NCBI RefSeq assembly: GCF_002150685.1
Contig: NZ_MSSW01000004.1
Span: 62,001 to 126,000, forward strand
Length of the DNA: 64,000 nt
Reading direction: 5' to 3'
From: Algoriphagus antarcticus
GTDB lineage: Bacteria > Bacteroidota > Bacteroidia > Cytophagales > Cyclobacteriaceae
The notes under the pieces were generated by a model. The model saw only the letters and a list, made by a program, of their open reading frames with translations, was not told the origin of the DNA and did not search any database. A program made the position numbers and the translations under genes. Each line of letters starts with the position of its first letter. Positions within the stretch are counted from its first letter, which is position 1. Shown here piece by piece: positions 2,111 to 10,035 of this stretch.

Positions 2111-3212
2111 TTAATCTTTACTTGCCTGCTCTTCGCTTTGCGCCAGCAAAAATGCTTTCATAAACTCATTCAATCCGCCATCCAGTACATGCTGGGTGTC
2201 AGAGGTTTCATGTCCAGTTCGATTGTCCTTTACCAGTTTGTAAGGATGAAGCACATAATTTCGGATCTGCGATCCAAAATCGACACGCATTTTGGAAGAT
2301 TCGATCTTTGCGATTTCCGCATTTCTCTTTTCCAATTCCATCTGAAACAAACGAGATTTCAGCATTTGCATAGCCTTCTCTCTGTTGGCAAGCTGGGAAC
2401 GCTCGATCTGACAGACCACCACGATTCCAGTAGGCTTGTGAGTCAACTGAACTTTTGTTTCCACCTTGTTCACGTTCTGTCCACCGGCACCACCTGATCT
2501 AGATGTATGCAATTCCACATCTGCTGGGTTGATCTCGATTTCTATGGTGTCATCCACTTCTGGATAGGCATACACAGAGGCAAAAGACGTATGTCTTCTT
2601 CCCCCTGAGTCAAATGGAGAGATTCGAACCAAGCGGTGAACGCCAGTTTCAGATTTCAAAAATCCATAAGCCAGTGGTCCTTCAAATTCCAAAGTACAGG
2701 ATTTGATCCCTGCCACTTCGCCTTGTTGTACATCTACTTCTCTGACCTTGTAGCCATTTTTCTCGCCCCACATGATATACATTCTCATGAGGATAGAGGC
2801 CCAGTCATTACTTTCTGTTCCCCCAGCTCCCGGATTGATTTCTATTACCGCATTCAGCTGATCCTCTTCCGATGAAAGCATTTTCTTGAGTTCTAGCTCT
2901 TGTACCTCAGCCTCAGCTTTGATATACTCAGCTTTGATTTCTTCTTCAGAAACCTCCTCTGCGCTATAGAACTCATATAAAACTTCGAGATCCTCAATGG
3001 TTTTACTAAGATTTTCAAATGAACTGGTCCAGGCTTTACGGGCTTGAATCTGTTTCATACTTTTTTCTGCCTCTTCTGGATTGTTCCAAAAATCAGGCTG
3101 GGCCGATACGGCCTCTAGGTCTTCTATTTCTGCTTTCTTACGATCGTAGTCAAAGATACCTCCTCAAAGCCGATGTGCGGGCTTTCAAGTCTTTCAGTTG
3201 TTCTGAAGTCAT
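2111..3212 (-). CDS. prfB: Peptide chain release factor 2, with programmed +1 frameshift
   Basis: RF2 ends translation at UGA and UAA codons. The gene is in two frames. The first is 20 codons from ATG 3212 to an in-frame TGA at 3152-3150. The second supplies the remaining 346 residues after a +1 shift, giving 366 in total, the usual RF2 length. The RF2 tripeptide anticodon SPF is at residues 198-200 and the hydrolysis motif GGQ at 243-245. Translation from the internal ATG at 3058 would lose about 50 N-terminal residues, so the frameshifted product is the real one. The region 3213-3278 upstream is short and shows no clear promoter. A terminator follows directly. Confidence 0.97.
3149..3164 (-). 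promoter_or_regulatory. Programmed +1 ribosomal frameshift site in prfB
   Basis: On the minus strand the site reads AGGAGGTATCTTTGAC. It has an internal Shine-Dalgarno sequence (AGGAGG), the slippery codon CTT, the RF2-dependent stop TGA and a following C. This is the established RF2 autoregulation cassette: when RF2 is scarce the ribosome slips from CTT to TTT and continues. The anti-SD contact is needed here even though most genes in this genome show little SD signal. Confidence 0.96.
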
Positions 3213-3923: not shown

Positions 3924-3965
3924 TTTAAGATAAATTTGTCTTAAATAAAAATCTACTTACTTTTG
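3924..3965 (+). promoter_or_regulatory. Promoter with Rrf2/NsrR-like operator
   Basis: A near-ideal Bacteroidota sigma-A promoter is visible: TTTG at 3935-3938, a 19-base spacer, then TACTTTTG at 3958-3965 (consensus TAnnTTTG). Transcription should begin near 3972. Overlapping the -33 element is the dyad TTTAAGA (3924-3930), 8 bases, TCTTAAA (3939-3945). The inner part, AAGATAAATTTGTCTT, resembles NsrR half-sites (AAGATG-type) known from other phyla. A repressor bound here would block the polymerase, so autoregulation by the downstream Rrf2 protein is the natural reading; binding itself is inferred. Confidence 0.75.
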
Positions 3966-3983
3966 GCATATCAAAACCTAACT

Positions 3984-4418
3984 ATGTTTTCAAAAGCCTG
4001 CGAGTACGGAATCAAAGCAATCATATACATAGCCTCTCAGTCTATGCTCGAAAGACGTGTGAAGATAGGGGAGGTAGTGGAGCATATTGATTCGCCAGAA
4101 GCTTTCACAGCCAAAATCGTCGGAGCTTTGGTAAAGGAAAATATCGTTCAATCTGTCACTGGACCCTATGGCGGTTTTTATATTGATAAGTACCAAATGG
4201 GTCAAATAACCATGATAGACATAGTCACGGCGATTGATGGGGATTCCATATTTAATGGCTGTGGTCTTGGGCTGAAAGATTGTGATGCAGAACAACCTTG
4301 TCCTATGCATTCCAAATTTGTAAAAGTCAGAGCTGACCTCAAAAGCATGCTAAATTCCACTTCTATCTTTGAATTGGCTGAAGGCCTTAAATCTGGAAAA
4401 TCTACTTTAATGAGATGA
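3984..4418 (+). CDS. Rrf2-family transcriptional regulator (NsrR-like)
   Basis: Rrf2 proteins are winged-helix repressors, many of which sense NO, iron or redox state through a Fe-S cluster. I chose ATG 3984 because Rrf2 proteins begin like MFSKACEYGIKA and because an earlier TTG at 3963 lies inside the promoter -10-like box. The 144-residue protein has the N-terminal helix-turn-helix and three clustered cysteines in CGLGLKDCDAEQPC, the spacing class that binds [2Fe-2S] or [4Fe-4S] in NsrR and IscR. Its stop overlaps the next start (ATGA). Position at the head of an operon with RIC and hemerythrin genes supports an NO-responsive role, which is inference. Confidence 0.88.
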   Translation: MFSKACEYGIKAIIYIASQSMLERRVKIGEVVEHIDSPEAFTAKIVGALVKENIVQSVTGPYGGFYIDKYQMGQITMIDIVTAIDGDSIFNGCGLGLKDCDAEQPCPMHSKFVKVRADLKSMLNSTSIFELAEGLKSGKSTLMR

Positions 4419-6265
4419 AAAAAAATTTGATTTTATTTACGACAAAAATGTCTGAAAAAAAAGTTGGATTAACGATCTTACTTTCATGCTTGGCTTATTT
4501 GCCACTAGCCGCACAACCAACGCCAAATCCAAGTACAAATAATTGGCTTGCAAGTCCAGGGATTATTGGCACTTTGGTATTGATTGCTTTGGTATTGATG
4601 ATTGCGATCTTAATCGTGGTAAAGCGTGCATCATCCATCATGAATTTTTTCCAACGGAAAAACGAAAAAGTAACGATTCAAAAGCTCCGGGAGGAGCTAT
4701 ATCAACTTGAAGAAGATGAAATAGATGAAGTACTGGAGGAGCGGAAAACGGCCAAAACCTATAAGCTAACTGGCGATGAACTATATCAAGGTGGGAAAGC
4801 AGTGGACCGAAAAGGAATTGTCTCCAGCTATACGAATGATCCGCAAAATCCTCTTGTAGATGAAAAGAAGCGATCTCGCTCTGTCTTGCAGATTCCCGTT
4901 GAGCTGAAAAACTTAGTGGTTTGGTACATTGGTGCAGCTACTTTTTGGTTGGTTTTTGGAACCCTCGTAGGTCAGTATTTAGGGATGAAATTTATGTGGC
5001 CTGATTTAGATCAGGTGTCTTTTCTGTCATTCGGTAGATTGAGACCTGTTCATACGAATACAGTGTTTTGGGGATGGGCATCTCTGGCTATGATTGGGCT
5101 AGGGTATTTTGTAATTGCCAAAACCTCCAACACTAAGATTTATAACTATAAAATCGCTTGGACTACCTGGGTTTTGATCAACCTTACCTTAGTGATCGGC
5201 AATATCTTCTTGATGTCGGGGATCAACAATGGAGGTGGAGAATATCGTGAGTACATCTGGCCGGTGATGATCATGTTTGCCATCGGGCTGATTCTTACTT
5301 TTTACAATTTCTACAAGACCATTCAGCTTCGCAAAATTGAAGAAATCTATATTTCCAACTGGTATATTATGGGTGCCATGGTGTGGACAATCGTCTTGGC
5401 GATAATCGGTTACTTGCCATGGTACCAAAATGGCTTGGGAGAGACAGTGATTCAAGGGTACTACATGCACCAAGGCGTGGGAATGTGGTTTATGACCTTT
5501 ACACTTGGGTTAGTCTATTATTACCTGCCTTCGTCACTCAACAAACCAATCTACTCTTATTCTCTTGGTGTATTGGCATTTTGGACTCAGATGCTGTTTT
5601 ATACCATGATCGGTACGCACCACTTTGTGTTTAGTCCACTTCCATGGTGGTTGCAGACGGTGGCGATTGTATTCAGTGCTGGGATGTTTATTCCCGTAGT
5701 GGCCGGCACTACAAATTTTCTGATGACCATGCGCGGTAGCTGGAATGACATCTCCAAAAGCTATGTATTGCCTTTCTTTTTGGTTGGAGTGGTCTTCTAT
5801 TTTGTAGGATCTACTCAGGGAAGTTTGCAGGCATTTCGCTTTACCAATTTTGTATGGCACTTCACAGACTTTAATGTAGCCCACTCGCATATGACCATGT
5901 ATGGGATTATCACATTTTTGCTCTGGGCGGCTATCTATGCTTTACTGCCCAAAATTACTGGAAATGAACCCAAGCAGCTTTTTGTTGGTGTCCATTTTTG
6001 GCTTGCATTCGTGGGATTATTCGCCTATATGATTTCGCTGATGGCTGGCGGTACGCTACGTGGGCTGAGTTGGATTGCTGGCGATACCTTTATAACGTCA
6101 GTAGTACTGATGCAGCCTTATTGGGTTTGGAGAGCCATAGGCGGCACACTGATGTTCATTTCGCATCTGATCTTCGCTTATAATTTCTACGAGATGGTAA
6201 GAGAAAGGAAAGATGCTGCAAAGCCAGCAGTAGTTCCTATGAAATCCACACTAGCTAACGTATAA
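4415..6265 (+). CDS. Divergent cbb3-type heme-copper oxidase subunit I (CcoN-like)
   Basis: The core from about residue 170 is a twelve-helix heme-copper oxidase subunit of the C family. Ligands can be assigned: H213 (RPVHTN) and H492 for low-spin heme b, H490 for the high-spin heme (AHSHMTMYG), and H352, H402, H403 for CuB. Y396 lies 44 residues after H352, the spacing of the cross-linked Tyr in CcoN. The FeB-binding Glu of cNOR is absent (Gly after HQGV). These residues suggest oxygen reduction, although cbb3 enzymes can also reduce NO. Unusual is a 160-residue N-terminal extension: a cleavable-looking leader, one membrane helix and a charged, coiled-coil-like stretch. ATG 4448 is an alternative start that gives a cleaner signal peptide. 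Confidence 0.85.
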   Translation: MKKNLILFTTKMSEKKVGLTILLSCLAYLPLAAQPTPNPSTNNWLASPGIIGTLVLIALVLMIAILIVVKRASSIMNFFQRKNEKVTIQKLREELYQLEEDEIDEVLEERKTAKTYKLTGDELYQGGKAVDRKGIVSSYTNDPQNPLVDEKKRSRSVLQIPVELKNLVVWYIGAATFWLVFGTLVGQYLGMKFMWPDLDQVSFLSFGRLRPVHTNTVFWGWASLAMIGLGYFVIAKTSNTKIYNYKIAWTTWVLINLTLVIGNIFLMSGINNGGGEYREYIWPVMIMFAIGLILTFYNFYKTIQLRKIEEIYISNWYIMGAMVWTIVLAIIGYLPWYQNGLGETVIQGYYMHQGVGMWFMTFTLGLVYYYLPSSLNKPIYSYSLGVLAFWTQMLFYTMIGTHHFVFSPLPWWLQTVAIVFSAGMFIPVVAGTTNFLMTMRGSWNDISKSYVLPFFLVGVVFYFVGSTQGSLQAFRFTNFVWHFTDFNVAHSHMTMYGIITFLLWAAIYALLPKITGNEPKQLFVGVHFWLAFVGLFAYMISLMAGGTLRGLSWIAGDTFITSVVLMQPYWVWRAIGGTLMFISHLIFAYNFYEMVRERKDAAKPAVVPMKSTLANV

Positions 6266-6268
6266 CAC

Positions 6269-7282
6269 ATGTTTAATTTTCATAAAAATCTAAATAGTCT
6301 GGTTTTGACATCCTTCCTGGTTTTTCTGGGCTTGACGTTGATCGTGGCAGTGATTCCAGCTTTTCAACTTCAGAAAACAGAACCGCTTCCAACTATGCTC
6401 GAACCTACTGCAGATGAACTGGAAGGACTTAAAGTCTATGTAAGTGAAAACTGCGTCGCCTGTCATACCCAACAAGTACGGAATATCGAGATGGATCAAA
6501 CCTGGGGCGATAGACCGTCTATTCCATCGGACTACTACTACAGCAAGCAACGACTGAATGTCTGGCAACAATCCCCTTCTGTATTGGGAAGTGAGCGAAC
6601 CGGGCCAGATCTGACCAATGTAGGGAAAAGACAGCCCGGCAAAGAATGGCACCTTTTACACTTATATAATCCTCGGATAGTCGTAAAGGAATCCATCATG
6701 CCAGGTTATTCGTGGATGTTTGAGGAGAAAACTCCTGATCAAGTGAAGGAAACAGATGTAATCGTATCAGTTCCCAAGGAATACTTAAGCCATCCTGACA
6801 ATAAGATTGTAGCTACCCAAAAGGCAATGCAGCTGGTAACTTATCTACAATCTCTGAAGCAAACCGATATGCCTGGAATGGATGCGACAGCTTTCATTCC
6901 TTCTTCGAAGAAAAAAGTGGCTCCTGCAAATTCGTCAACAGCAGGGGAGGCAGTTCTTCCAGATGGACTAGCACTATATTCACAGTCTTGTGCAGCCTGT
7001 CACCAAGCGAATGGTGAAGGTATAGCTGGAGCATTTCCACCGCTGGCTGGGTCGGAGATCATAAATGAAGATAATCTTGAGACACTTATCAGAATCATCT
7101 TGCAAGGATATGACGCAAGGCCTGAATATGGAGCTATGCCCCCTTTCGGAGACCAACTTTCGGATGAAGATATTGCTGCGATTACTAGCCATGAACGTAG
7201 CAGTTGGGGAAATTCCGCCAAGAAAGTAACCGCGGAAGAAGTGAGGAAAATCAGAGAATTAGTAAATCTTTCGAATAACTAA
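6269..7282 (+). CDS. Membrane-anchored di-heme cytochrome c: CcoO-like domain fused to a second cytochrome c domain
   Basis: One N-terminal membrane helix (residues 14-33) is followed by a CcoO-like domain. This domain has heme site CVACH at residues 62-66, the family stretch ERTGPDLTNVGKR, and a Met ligand in SIMPGYSW. A linker leads to a second cytochrome c domain with CAACH at 241-245 and a Met ligand in AMPPFGD. The protein therefore combines the electron entry roles that CcoO and CcoP share between two subunits in standard cbb3 oxidases. It starts 3 bp after the oxidase subunit and must be its redox partner. It acts on the outer face of the inner membrane. Confidence 0.88.
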   Translation: MFNFHKNLNSLVLTSFLVFLGLTLIVAVIPAFQLQKTEPLPTMLEPTADELEGLKVYVSENCVACHTQQVRNIEMDQTWGDRPSIPSDYYYSKQRLNVWQQSPSVLGSERTGPDLTNVGKRQPGKEWHLLHLYNPRIVVKESIMPGYSWMFEEKTPDQVKETDVIVSVPKEYLSHPDNKIVATQKAMQLVTYLQSLKQTDMPGMDATAFIPSSKKKVAPANSSTAGEAVLPDGLALYSQSCAACHQANGEGIAGAFPPLAGSEIINEDNLETLIRIILQGYDARPEYGAMPPFGDQLSDEDIAAITSHERSSWGNSAKKVTAEEVRKIRELVNLSNN

Positions 7283-7283
7283 G

Positions 7284-7556
7284 ATGATGAAAACAAAAAT
7301 AATTGCGCTATCAATCCTTCTGTTTATTGTTTCTATAGGAGGAGCATTCGCCTGCGAAGTATGTAAAAGTAAGCAGCCAAAAGGGTTTGCGGATATTACT
7401 CATGGATCAGGTCCAGGCAGTAATTTGGAATATTTCATTGTTTGGGGAGCGGCAATACTCGTGACCATTACGCTAGGCCTGAGCTTAAAATTTCTGATCA
7501 AACCACAGGAAAATCAACCTGATCACATCAAAAATAGTATCCTAGATCATTTATAA
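7284..7556 (+). CDS. Small membrane protein with CxxC, oxidase-operon accessory subunit
   Basis: This 90-residue protein starts one base after the previous stop. It has a signal peptide ending at AFA, then the motif CEVCKSKQP directly after the predicted cleavage site, and one membrane helix (about residues 51-71). The two cysteines at the mature N-terminus could bind a metal or act in thiol exchange during cofactor insertion. Size and position recall the small CcoQ/CcoS subunits of cbb3 oxidases, but I see no sequence match to them. Confidence 0.65.
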   Translation: MMKTKIIALSILLFIVSIGGAFACEVCKSKQPKGFADITHGSGPGSNLEYFIVWGAAILVTITLGLSLKFLIKPQENQPDHIKNSILDHL

Positions 7557-7559
7557 ATC

Positions 7560-7982
7560 ATGGAAGACAAGAGAAGTATAAGAATATTCCTAGACGACGA
7601 TCCAATACCATTTGCGGAGTTTGCCCCACCGGTAAAGTTTGTATTCGATTCTACCAAAATCCCAGACGGAAAACACGAATTGAAGATTGTGGCAGTTTCC
7701 TCCAATGGAAAAGAGGGAGTAAAGCACATTCCGTTTGAAGTTCGTAATGGGCCGTCCATCTCTGTCATTGGATTAAATCCAAATGAAGTAATCAATGAAC
7801 AGATACCGATCACAGTCAATGCCTATGGTAGCGAAAGAAGTGATCTATTTATAGTGACAGGCTCCGAAAACCCCAAAGGAATACCTGCTTGGATTTGGGC
7901 GCTGGTGCTATCATTCGTCGGATTCGCACTCTTCTATCTAATCATGTATTTCAATCCGGATTTTTACAAATCATTTATATAA
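7560..7982 (+). CDS. Membrane-anchored beta-sandwich protein, oxidase-operon accessory
   Basis: The 140-residue protein begins with an Ig-like or fibronectin-like beta domain of about 95 residues and ends with one membrane helix (residues 108-128, IPAWIWALVLSF). It carries no signal peptide and no heme motif, so the tail probably anchors it. An Ig-like fold with a membrane anchor recalls FixH-like assembly factors, but residue-level support is lacking. It sits 3 bp downstream of the preceding small gene and is surely co-transcribed. Confidence 0.6.
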   Translation: MEDKRSIRIFLDDDPIPFAEFAPPVKFVFDSTKIPDGKHELKIVAVSSNGKEGVKHIPFEVRNGPSISVIGLNPNEVINEQIPITVNAYGSERSDLFIVTGSENPKGIPAWIWALVLSFVGFALFYLIMYFNPDFYKSFI

Positions 7983-8001
7983 AATCAATCGATCAACCGA
8001 T

Positions 8002-8445
8002 ATGTCATTGGTCAAAAATCCCCTATCTCTGATTTCCACGTTTCTTTGGATAGGCTTTGTATGCGCAATTAGCTTTATGGAAGCTTGGCTGAAATTTCAG
8101 GCTCCGGGAATCACAGTAGCCTTGGGTTTGGGAATCGGGAGACTAGTCTTCTATGCGCTGAACAAAGTAGAATGGGTCTTTGCAATAGCCATTTTGCTGA
8201 GTAGTATCATAGCTAAGGAAAGGTTGCTCAGTTTTAAGACCATTCCTTTTGCTATTCCCTTGTTGTTCTTGCTCATTCAGACTTTCTGGCTTTTACCTGC
8301 GCTGGATGCACGAGCAGAATTAATCATTCATGTACATGATTTACCCTCTTCAAACCTTCATTTCTATTATGTAGGAATGGAAATAATCAAAGTATCAACA
8401 CTTATCATATTTGGAATATTTCACTTCAAAACTATAAAATCATGA
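8002..8445 (+). CDS. Four-helix integral membrane protein in the NO/respiration operon
   Basis: The 147-residue protein has four hydrophobic helices and contains conserved-looking charged positions within or near them, such as SFMEAWLKF in helix 1 and a His pair in IIHVHD between helices 3 and 4. Glu and His at the membrane face could bind heme or metal. Its stop overlaps the RIC start by ATGA, indicating translational coupling to RIC. I do not recognise the family; small membrane proteins of this shape are often found with NO-handling genes, which is context only. Confidence 0.55.
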   Translation: MSLVKNPLSLISTFLWIGFVCAISFMEAWLKFQAPGITVALGLGIGRLVFYALNKVEWVFAIAILLSSIIAKERLLSFKTIPFAIPLLFLLIQTFWLLPALDARAELIIHVHDLPSSNLHFYYVGMEIIKVSTLIIFGIFHFKTIKS

Positions 8446-9170
8446 GTCTTACAGAACAATCTATCATCGGAGAATTAGTAGCAAAGGATTATCGCTATGC
8501 TACTGTATTTCAGAAAAACAAAATTGATTTCTGCTGCCAAGGCAATAGAACAATTGAAGAAGCTTGCGACAGAAAAAAAGTGAATATTGATGCTTTACTT
8601 TCTGAGTTGACAGAAGCAGCCCAAATAAATGAAACTGCCACTACAGATTTCAATTCATGGCCGTTAGACTTGCTGGCTGATTACATAGAGAAAAAACACC
8701 ACCGCTATGTGGAATCTCGAATCACTGAGATCAAGCCTATGCTTGCAAAGATCGTAAAGGTTCATGGAGAAATGCACCCTGAATTACTCGAGGTAGAGGA
8801 GCTGTTTCTCGGATCGGCAGGAGAACTGACAGCGCATATGAAGAAGGAGGAGTTTATTTTATTTCCTTTCGTCAAAAAACTGGTTCAAGCATCTGAGGAG
8901 AAAACGGAATTGACACCTGGCCATTTTGGAACGGTCGCCAATCCAGTCGCTATGATGATGGAGGAGCATGCAGCAGAGGGAGAGCGATTCAGAAAAATTG
9001 CTGAATTAACTGATGATTATACTCCACCAAAGGGTGCTTGTACTACTTATATGGTTACCTTTTCCTTATTGAAGGAATTTGAGCAGGATTTGCATTTGCA
9101 TATTCACCTGGAGAATAATATTTTATTCCCTAAAGCTATTGAATTAGAAAAATCCCAAGTCTATGCCTAA
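8442..9170 (+). CDS. ric: Iron-sulfur cluster repair di-iron protein (RIC/YtfE/ScdA family)
   Basis: RIC proteins help restore Fe-S clusters damaged by nitric oxide or peroxide. The 242-residue protein has the N-terminal ScdA domain with its signature cysteines (FCCQG, C31/C32, and C42), then a hemerythrin-like four-helix bundle with the di-iron ligands in KKHHRYVE, HGEMHPE, HMKKEEFILFP, EEHAAEGE and HIHLENNILFP. Length fits the family. Translational overlap on both sides ties it to the membrane protein before and the hemerythrin after. This gene is the strongest evidence that the operon answers nitrosative stress. Confidence 0.95.
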   Translation: MSLTEQSIIGELVAKDYRYATVFQKNKIDFCCQGNRTIEEACDRKKVNIDALLSELTEAAQINETATTDFNSWPLDLLADYIEKKHHRYVESRITEIKPMLAKIVKVHGEMHPELLEVEELFLGSAGELTAHMKKEEFILFPFVKKLVQASEEKTELTPGHFGTVANPVAMMMEEHAAEGERFRKIAELTDDYTPPKGACTTYMVTFSLLKEFEQDLHLHIHLENNILFPKAIELEKSQVYA

Positions 9171-9642
9171 TCAGCCTATAAAGAGACATATAGCACTTCA
9201 GCCTTTAAGCCGTGATCATCATCACGGCTTATTGTTCTGCTGGAAAGTTCGATCCGGAGTAAAGAGAGGCATTGATGTCAGCCGAATGAAAGCTCATGCT
9301 ATTTGGTTCTGGGAATCACATTTGGTTTCGCATTTTGCTGAGGAAGAAGCAGTAGTATTTCCAATTTTAGGAAAAGAAAATGAATTGATCCAGCAGGCAC
9401 TTGCCGAACATGCAGAGTTAAAAAAGTTGTTTTCCCAAGAGGAAATGGATTATGAGTTTCTGAATTACCTTCAGGTGGCCTTGGAAAAACACATTCGATT
9501 TGAGGAGCGGATTCTTTTTAATGAAATTCAAGAAGTGGCCAATGCTGATCAACTGGCGGCAGTAGATCAACACAATTCTTCCAATGACGAGGAGTTTGAA
9601 TGGGCGGATGATTATTGGAATTGGAAGAAATCAGAGGCATAG
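9163..9642 (+). CDS. Hemerythrin-domain protein
   Basis: A stand-alone 159-residue four-helix bundle with an HHE-type ligand set: SRDHHHGLL near residue 18, HLVSHFAEEEAVVFP near 65, HAELKK near 92 and HIRFEERILF near 115. Such proteins bind a di-iron centre and can carry oxygen or NO, or store iron. It overlaps the RIC gene by 8 bp and is the last gene of the operon. The tail is acidic and aromatic (DDYWNW). A 15-bp duplication straddles its stop codon. Confidence 0.85.
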   Translation: MPNQPIKRHIALQPLSRDHHHGLLFCWKVRSGVKRGIDVSRMKAHAIWFWESHLVSHFAEEEAVVFPILGKENELIQQALAEHAELKKLFSQEEMDYEFLNYLQVALEKHIRFEERILFNEIQEVANADQLAAVDQHNSSNDEEFEWADDYWNWKKSEA

Positions 9643-9660
9643 TTATCAGAGGCATAGTTA
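9631..9660 (+). repeat. Perfect 15-bp tandem duplication at a stop codon
   Basis: TCAGAGGCATAGTTA occurs twice back to back (9631-9645, 9646-9660). The first copy contains the last codons and stop of the hemerythrin gene, so the second adds a copy of the gene's end into the intergenic region. Confidence 0.9.
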
Positions 9661-10035
9661 ATTATGCTTTTTATAGTGTTTTGACACTTCGGCTAATTTA
9701 AAAATTTTCTCTCTGTTCTTTTTGCTTCGTCAACCTTTTTCCGTGAACCAACGTTCGTGGTATATATTAAAGAGATAGCCTTACGTATAAACTTTTGGCT
9801 ATTTTTTGTTTTAAATACGCTTCCCTTGAATTTACAGGTTTCACATATTTCCTTTGGTACTTCAACTGCATCTGTCAGACCGGATATTTGTGGGCTTTTC
9901 CGAAAGAATAAAGCCTTTATTTATTAGCCCCCAGTGATTTTAAGGATTACGTAGGTAGGGCAATTTTTCCAGACTTCTCACTTTTATATACCCGATCATA
10001 TCATGCTTGGGTTCAAATTCTTACCTCAAAAAACC
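9643..10035. other. Intergenic region after the RIC operon
   Basis: No open frame of note. It holds the end of the 15-bp duplication, the terminator at 9775-9807, and about 220 bp of AT-rich leader before the Rnk-like gene. I see no tRNA or strong promoter. Confidence 0.6.
9775..9807 (+). terminator. Probable terminator of the Rrf2-RIC operon
   Basis: ATAGCC (9775-9780) pairs with GGCTAT (9797-9802) over a 16-base loop and is followed by six T residues. It lies 133 bp after the last operon gene. Confidence 0.6.

Follow-up and report, generated by a model that had tools for sequence, protein, structure and literature searches.

A 64,000-nucleotide stretch of the Algoriphagus antarcticus genome (contig NZ_MSSW01000004.1, positions 62,001 to 126,000; hereafter the window) carries an operon of eight genes, which encode an Rrf2-family regulator, a CcoN-like heme-copper oxidase subunit (subunit I), a CcoO-like partner (subunit II), three small proteins (s4, s5, and s6), the iron-sulfur (Fe-S) cluster repair protein RIC, and a hemerythrin-domain protein (Table 1). 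Subunit I belongs to a distinct branch of the C-family (cbb3) oxygen reductases, and the operon is strongly linked to nitric oxide (NO). The genes are separated by gaps of 3, 1, 3, and 19 bp or joined by overlapping starts of 4, 4, and 8 bp. The eight-gene operon, the spacing, and the domain content proposed in a first-pass annotation of this DNA are confirmed; the start given there, 3924, falls inside the 28-bp palindrome upstream of the regulator. The regulator itself most likely starts at ATG 3984 rather than at TTG 3963, since aligned relatives begin with MFSK and TTG 3963 lies in a promoter-like stretch.

Table 1. Features of the operon, in window positions (Cys, cysteine; TM, transmembrane; HMM, hidden Markov model)
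Feature	Position	Strand	Basis or remark
Operator-like palindrome TTATTTAAGATAAATTTGTCTTAAATAA	3921..3948	.	26/28 positions self-complementary
Promoter-like TTTG-N19-TACTTTTG	3935..3965	+	-33 box within the operator palindrome
Rrf2-family regulator, Cys 93, 100, 106	3984..4418	+	HMM, aligned relatives
Subunit I, CcoN-like C-family heme-copper oxidase, ~165-residue N-terminal extension	4415..6265	+	
Subunit II, CcoO/FixO with C-terminally fused second cytochrome c domain, two CXXCH	6269..7282	+	
Small membrane protein s4: signal, CXXC, one TM segment (read from sequence)	7284..7556	+	
Small protein s5: predicted beta domain and C-terminal TM helix	7560..7982	+	
Membrane protein s6: several TM stretches (read from sequence)	8002..8445	+	
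RIC, ScdA/YtfE-type di-iron Fe-S cluster repair protein	8442..9170	+	TIGR03652
Hemerythrin-domain protein	9163..9642	+	PF01814, 2.7e-9
Terminator-like hairpin 3' of the operon	9741..9760	+	1 found; shuffle mean 0.3

A scan of contigs gave 418 relatives of subunit I of any closeness. Counts of neighboring genes rest on the best 80 of these, which are 64 to 88% identical to subunit I and lie on contigs labeled, for example, Algoriphagus, Cyclobacterium, Arenibacter, Gillisia, Gelidibacter, and Sphingobacterium; one locus (L133), in which picking of open reading frames (ORFs) gave no subunit I, was dropped to leave 79. Subunit II lies immediately 3' of subunit I in 79 of these 79 readable loci, so the arrangement is far beyond chance, and s4, s5, and s6 are present in 62, 66, and 27 of them, respectively. 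HMM searches identified subunit II as FixO (7.5e-30) with a C-terminal cytochrome c domain. Its best NCBIfam match is NF011054 (bifunctional cbb3 subunit II/cytochrome c; E 8.7e-38), which has the same domain order, but the score of 130.5 bits is below the cutoff of 447. The two CXXCH motifs recur in all eight relatives from genomes of the phylum and in 80 of 82 strong matches in the best-80 loci. RIC exceeded the cutoff of its equivalog model TIGR03652 (240.1 versus 204.7 bits). The predicted structure of s5 consists of beta strands and a TM helix (predicted template modeling score, 0.42) and gave no match in the PDB at E<=0.001. Five of the eight phylum-genome relatives, some of them deeper relatives, have an s5 with an extra cytochrome c domain, and one such s5, when tested, matched CcoP weakly (34.7 bits; cutoff, 180).

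No CcoP, CcoQ, or cbb3 assembly protein was found among the eight products by HMM or by sequence, as the first-pass annotation had also noted for CcoP and the assembly genes. Compared with the cbb3 oxidase of Pseudomonas stutzeri (PDB 3mk7), with which it shares a CcoO-like subunit II bearing heme c, the system has no CcoP, a second heme c on CcoO, an N-terminal extension on subunit I, no assembly genes, and an Rrf2 regulator. An ordinary-looking CcoNO fusion is encoded on another contig of the A. antarcticus genome, followed by genes which, from their sequences, we take to be CcoP, CcoG, FixH, and SafE-like. The extension, put at 160 residues in the first-pass annotation, is close to 165, the COX1 match beginning at residue 167; from sequence, it comprises a signal-like stretch and one TM helix. 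We considered a fused CcoP anchor as its origin and rejected this, as the comparison with the organism's own CcoP-like protein was not significant (phmmer E, 0.014; profile E, 0.044); the best phmmer match was an unrelated-looking 254-residue membrane protein in locus L049 (4.7e-5; profile only 0.15). A literature search that covered titles and abstract openings, with subscription journals mostly outside it, found no description of the operon.

Family placement and active site of subunit I

Subunit I matches the COX1 HMM over residues 167 to 579 (1.2e-79) and, in a search of PDB sequences, CcoN of 3mk7 over residues 175 to 602 (E 1.2e-62); all five of the PDB sequences that reached E<=0.001 are named cytochrome oxidase. 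The fold is shared with 3mk7 (Foldseek E 2.3e-20), at 28 to 29% identity over the Foldseek alignments. The score against the ccoN equivalog TIGR00780, however, was 249.1 bits, below the cutoff of 583.15. The AlphaFold model has a mean predicted local distance difference test score of 65, with values below 50 at residues 349 to 352, 374 to 391, and 393 to 409, and its geometry was left unused. Close relatives of subunit I, which we call clade 1, were found in 9 of 296 genomes of the phylum as matches at 50 to 100% identity, the next matches down being at 37%.

A tree was built in a single tree search from 50 chosen rows, 23 of them from clade 1 and eight from the NO reductase (NOR) families cNOR and qNOR; gNOR, eNOR, and sNOR lie outside its sampling, and some branches, those of the Thermus cNOR and a Phyllobacterium protein, are long. 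Clade 1 forms one side of a branch with support of 100/100 and sits among the C-family oxidases (97/89), and the cNOR and qNOR rows stand apart from it (100/100). Its neighbors (98/94) are divergent cbb3-like enzymes, namely, a second clade from the same phylum (clade 2) and oxidases encoded on plasmids of Proteobacteria (Azoarcus, Paraburkholderia, Cupriavidus, and Paracoccus). We conclude that clade 1 is a distinct branch inside the C-family oxygen reductases and not ordinary CcoN. The earlier proposal that the enzyme departs from an ordinary ccoNOPQ oxidase is thus upheld, as clade 1 does not cluster firmly with the ordinary ccoN rows. The other side of that proposal, placement with the NORs, found no support; membership of cNOR or qNOR is ruled out by tree position and active-site residues, both of which point to C-family O2 reductases. 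Further NOR families, eNOR, sNOR, gNOR, and nNOR, are reportedly described in a 2024 PNAS abstract.

Active-site residues were compared in an alignment of 88 clade 1 rows, 18 other C-family rows, and eight NOR rows. Among the clade 1 rows, L041 and L065 are seemingly one genome, both contigs having a length of 56584, and L132 and L134 are two copies in one metagenome-assembled genome. Three of the NOR rows are cNORs; two of these (Thermus L160 and Thioclava L161) are annotated "cbb3-type subunit I" and were called cNOR from their Glu residues and neighbors; for this pair, the residue contrast is therefore circular in part. The ligands of heme b, heme b3, and CuB (H213, H352, H402, H403, H490, and H492) are kept in 88/88 clade 1 rows, as in 3mk7, and so is Y396, which stands on the helix preceding the His-His pair, at the position of the cross-linked Tyr251 (P. 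stutzeri numbering). In the NOR rows this position holds Gly, Ser, or Thr (8/8). The two Glu sites of the NORs, occupied by Glu in 8/8 NOR rows, are Gly in 88/88 clade 1 rows (His+4) and Met in 83 or Thr in 5 (His+8). By the key in table A4 of PMC8756737, as far as that table goes (Tyr for oxygen reductases, Glu for cNOR and qNOR, Asn for sNOR, Gln for eNOR, and Asp for gNOR), clade 1 reads as an oxygen reductase; the Asp, Gln, or Asn of gNOR, eNOR, and sNOR is seen in none of the 88 rows.

Clade 1 nevertheless departs from 3mk7, with Gly for Trp203, Gly for Ser240, and Gln for Glu323. The Gln is also usual in divergent C-family rows and is shared with clade 2 and the plasmid oxidases. Four residues before the CuB His, Gly takes the place of Trp in 88/88 clade 1 rows, whereas the Trp is kept in 17/18 other C-family rows, in 8/8 NOR rows, and in the organism's own A-type oxidase, so that the motif is QGYYMHQG in clade 1 and [QNE]WW[YF][GA]HN elsewhere. 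Clade 2 and the plasmid oxidases, unlike clade 1, keep WW-[YF]-[GA]-HN, and in the annotated cases, which do not include the Cupriavidus and Paracoccus stretches, CcoO and cytochrome c are encoded by separate genes. Ser240 is Gly in 88/88 clade 1 rows, and Thr215 (both in P. stutzeri numbering) is Met in 83/88, compared with Ser and Thr, each in 17/18 other C-family rows. We take Ser240 and Thr215 to be part of the cbb3 proton route, and the Trp that precedes the CuB His acts as a redox-active residue in A-type oxidases; a literature search gave no usable support on either point. The only other C-family row without this Trp is the long-branched Phyllobacterium protein, a divergent cbb3-like subunit I of a Phyllobacterium zundukense plasmid (L157, 5001-6434) that also has Gly there and whose partner subunit II has 561 residues.

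Regulator, operator, and gene neighborhood

The regulator belongs to the Rrf2 family (HMM, 6.8e-21). Its three Cys residues are present in 58/58 aligned regulators, including that of the window and the qNOR-linked one described below, and their spacing presumably fits an NsrR-like Fe-S sensor. Operator searches used 56 upstream regions, after exclusion of 23 of the 79 loci without a same-strand Rrf2 gene within two upstream genes. The best 24-mer was palindromic at 20 or more positions in 24/56 regions (2.8% of shuffles), and the core GAYAAANTTRTC was found with at most one mismatch in 41/56 (1.2% of two-base-block shuffles), mostly 50 to 63 bp 5' of the regulator start; the other 15 have at least two mismatches. 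The element TANNTTTG follows the TTTG or TTTA of the operator by 19 to 22 nucleotides in 35/42 regions, the window included (0.5% of shuffled tails). As TTTG-N19-TANNTTTG is the -33/-7 promoter form of Bacteroidota, the -33 box of the promoter seems to lie within the operator.

The full operator motif occurs without mismatch once in the A. antarcticus genome, at this operon. The qNOR gene of the same genome lies directly 3' of a second Rrf2 gene. The protein encoded there shares 49% identity with the regulator in the window, and the gene has its own palindrome, with a similar core, GACAAACTTGTC. A genome-wide regulon was sought and discarded, as the six near-matches that were placed (on the organism's own contigs C124 and C80, two in genome G194, and two in G273) all lie inside ORFs; this check did not extend to two-mismatch sites on contigs C24 and C60. 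A count of the operator across the phylum was also abandoned, the pattern being too loose. In Proteobacteria, NsrR controls dnrN/ytfE (RIC) and nnrS through a palindrome, according to the part of PMC1274295 consulted, so that an Rrf2 protein, a palindrome, and a RIC gene as target are common to both systems. The motifs differ, however, being ATTTnnGAYAAATTTRTCnnAAAT here and gATGyAT-N5-ATrCATc for NsrR in that source. Annotated Rrf2 regulators also stand near a qNOR gene on a Novosphingobium plasmid (L162) and a cNOR-like gene on a Thermus plasmid (L160), both in other phyla.

Among the 79 loci, neighbors include truncated globin in 48, RIC in 38, hemerythrin in 30, HTHP in 25, and qNOR, within six genes of the operon, in 4. 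These are lower bounds, as some loci end at contig edges and 14 are under 15 kb; the names globin, HTHP, and, below, Trp-dioxygenase were each assigned from a single representative. The setting of HTHP points to NO or peroxide. At least one of RIC, hemerythrin, and truncated globin is near the operon in 61/79 loci, compared with 0/11 control loci of other C-family enzymes (13, less L048 and L053, in which ORF picking gave no subunit I). The 11 controls also lack qNOR and HTHP, and one has an Rrf2-like gene. In three genomes of the same family (G338, G395, and G410), the operon lies 13 to 30 kb from nosZ together with qNOR or NirK, RIC, and a protein that we take to be NnrS-like, as we name the other genes of these islands, from sequence; it has no Pfam or NCBIfam match. 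In G338, an Rrf2 paralogue directly follows qNOR. The proposed link to NO is strong, borne out by the neighbors, the three denitrification islands, the three-Cys regulator, its qNOR-adjacent paralogue, and the operator on the promoter.

Other genes also recur near the operon. In 11/79 loci (e.g., L087:14905-15834), a protein of the heme family PF03301 that resembles tryptophan 2,3-dioxygenase but is divergent is encoded a few genes 3' of the operon core, and by eye a similar protein is seen in L149 at 8621-9538. Clusters adjoining the clade 1 operon in L044 (4856-6888) and L045 (14538-15803) encode short heme-copper/NnrS-like membrane proteins, with what we take, from sequence, to be DUF2249-like, SufT/PaaD-like, and CRP-like genes.

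Distribution and probable function

Distribution was examined in 148 genomes of the family, with tests that take no account of kinship. Clade 1 is found in 21, qNOR in 24, NosZ in 79, NirK in 27, and cNOR in 21 (counted where the Thermus protein had a match with E no higher than 1e-77). A canonical NOR accompanies NirK (20/27 NirK-positive versus 20/121 NirK-negative genomes; p=1.4e-8), whereas clade 1 does not (4/27 versus 17/121; p=1). NosZ is present in 17/21 clade 1 genomes and 62/127 others (p=0.008). These counts indicate that the enzyme goes with an N2O-reducing way of life without being the usual NOR of denitrifiers that have nirK. The idea of clade 1 as the missing NOR of NirK-positive genomes was likewise dropped, as only one of the seven NirK-positive genomes without a qNOR or cNOR match has clade 1. 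A. antarcticus itself has NirK and qNOR matches and no NosZ match.

We consider it fairly probable that the operon encodes an NO-induced, NO-adapted cytochrome c:O2 reductase of a distinct, cbb3-like C-family type, most likely one that sustains O2 respiration under NO. The cytochrome c domain fused to CcoO would be the entry point for electrons, which would move on to the CcoO heme, then to heme b, and finally to heme b3-CuB in subunit I, the presumed site of O2 reduction. The Rrf2 protein, as an Fe-S repressor, would bind its own promoter at the -33 box; damage to its cluster by NO would release it, and the oxidase, RIC, and hemerythrin (at other loci also the truncated globin) would be induced together. 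The cell could then continue to respire O2, and perhaps clear some NO, while ordinary oxidases are inhibited. The operon and its conservation, the overlap of operator and promoter, the clade placement, the active-site residues, and the neighboring NO-linked genes are computed results, whereas NO sensing, repression, O2 as the main substrate, and tolerance of NO are inferred. Several observations weigh against this reading. The regulator scores only 33.0 bits against the NsrR equivalog (cutoff, 182); RIC, hemerythrin, and globin are all unseen in 18/79 loci; qNOR is not significantly more frequent in clade 1 genomes (6/21 versus 18/127; p=0.11); and the losses of Ser240 and Thr215 could impair O2 reduction or proton supply. 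Moreover, the cbb3 oxidases of Vibrio cholerae and Rhodobacter sphaeroides are strongly inhibited by NO, in the portion of PMC9266656 consulted, and therefore NO tolerance here would require changes particular to this enzyme.

The absence of a canonical NOR match from 13/21 clade 1 genomes, 11 of which have NosZ, would also fit a dedicated NO reductase that arose separately within the C-family, in which the loss of Trp (invariant as Gly) and the altered proton route favor reduction of 2 NO to N2O for detoxification, mainly in N2O reducers without other NORs. Slow NO reduction is already known from cbb3 enzymes (PMC9266656 and PMC8780969, as far as these were consulted), and the NO-linked neighborhood, which clade 1 shares with cNOR and qNOR along with the superfamily, would suit such an enzyme. 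We regard it as rather unlikely, however. The Tyr is kept throughout, though it is replaced in each NOR type of the PMC8756737 table, and Glu is missing at both NOR positions; NirK is not tracked as it is by canonical NORs; NosZ-positive genomes show no complementarity between clade 1 and NOR (6/17 versus 22/62; p=1); and four loci have a qNOR within six genes. A related and similarly doubtful proposal is that this C-family type, with Gly for the CuB Trp, a rebuilt proton route, and an intact His-Tyr pair, physiologically converts NO to N2O, alone or by switching between O2 and NO, as the NO scavenger of N2O-reducing Bacteroidota that lack a canonical NOR.

That the enzyme is instead an ordinary high-affinity oxidase for low O2, traveling with general Fe-S and oxidative stress genes under an Rrf2 protein whose signal is O2, iron, or peroxide and not NO, strikes us as improbable. 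The regulator does score higher against IscR (49.1 bits) than against NsrR, with neither above cutoff, and RIC, hemerythrin, and HTHP are compatible with oxidative stress as well; the 18 loci in which RIC, hemerythrin, and globin are unseen also speak for this reading. The Rrf2 paralogue directly before the organism's own qNOR, and that after qNOR in G338, argue otherwise, as do the three genomes with the operon near qNOR, nosZ, or NirK and the truncated globin in 48 loci, such neighbors being absent from all controls. A noncatalytic or sensory heme-copper protein derived from CcoN would account for the low ccoN score and the losses of Trp and Ser240; we think it very improbable, given heme and CuB ligands and a Tyr that are invariant over 88 rows, the constant adjacency of subunit II, and its conserved CXXCH motifs.

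NO is well known to inhibit heme-copper oxidases. If the preferred reading, an NO-adapted O2 reductase, is correct, an NO-switched oxidase would offer a natural experiment on the ways in which such a site can evade NO or make use of it, with the invariant Trp-to-Gly change beside CuB as a single-residue handle. By the counts given above for the best 80 of 418 relatives and for the 148 family genomes, clade 1 is common, and its enrichment in NosZ carriers makes it relevant to the turnover of N2O where oxic and anoxic zones meet.

Apart from the operon, positions 2111 to 3212 of the window (minus strand) hold a gene that we take to be prfB-like, with the arrangement of a programmed +1 frameshift: a short leader, TGA, and a frame of 315 amino acids.

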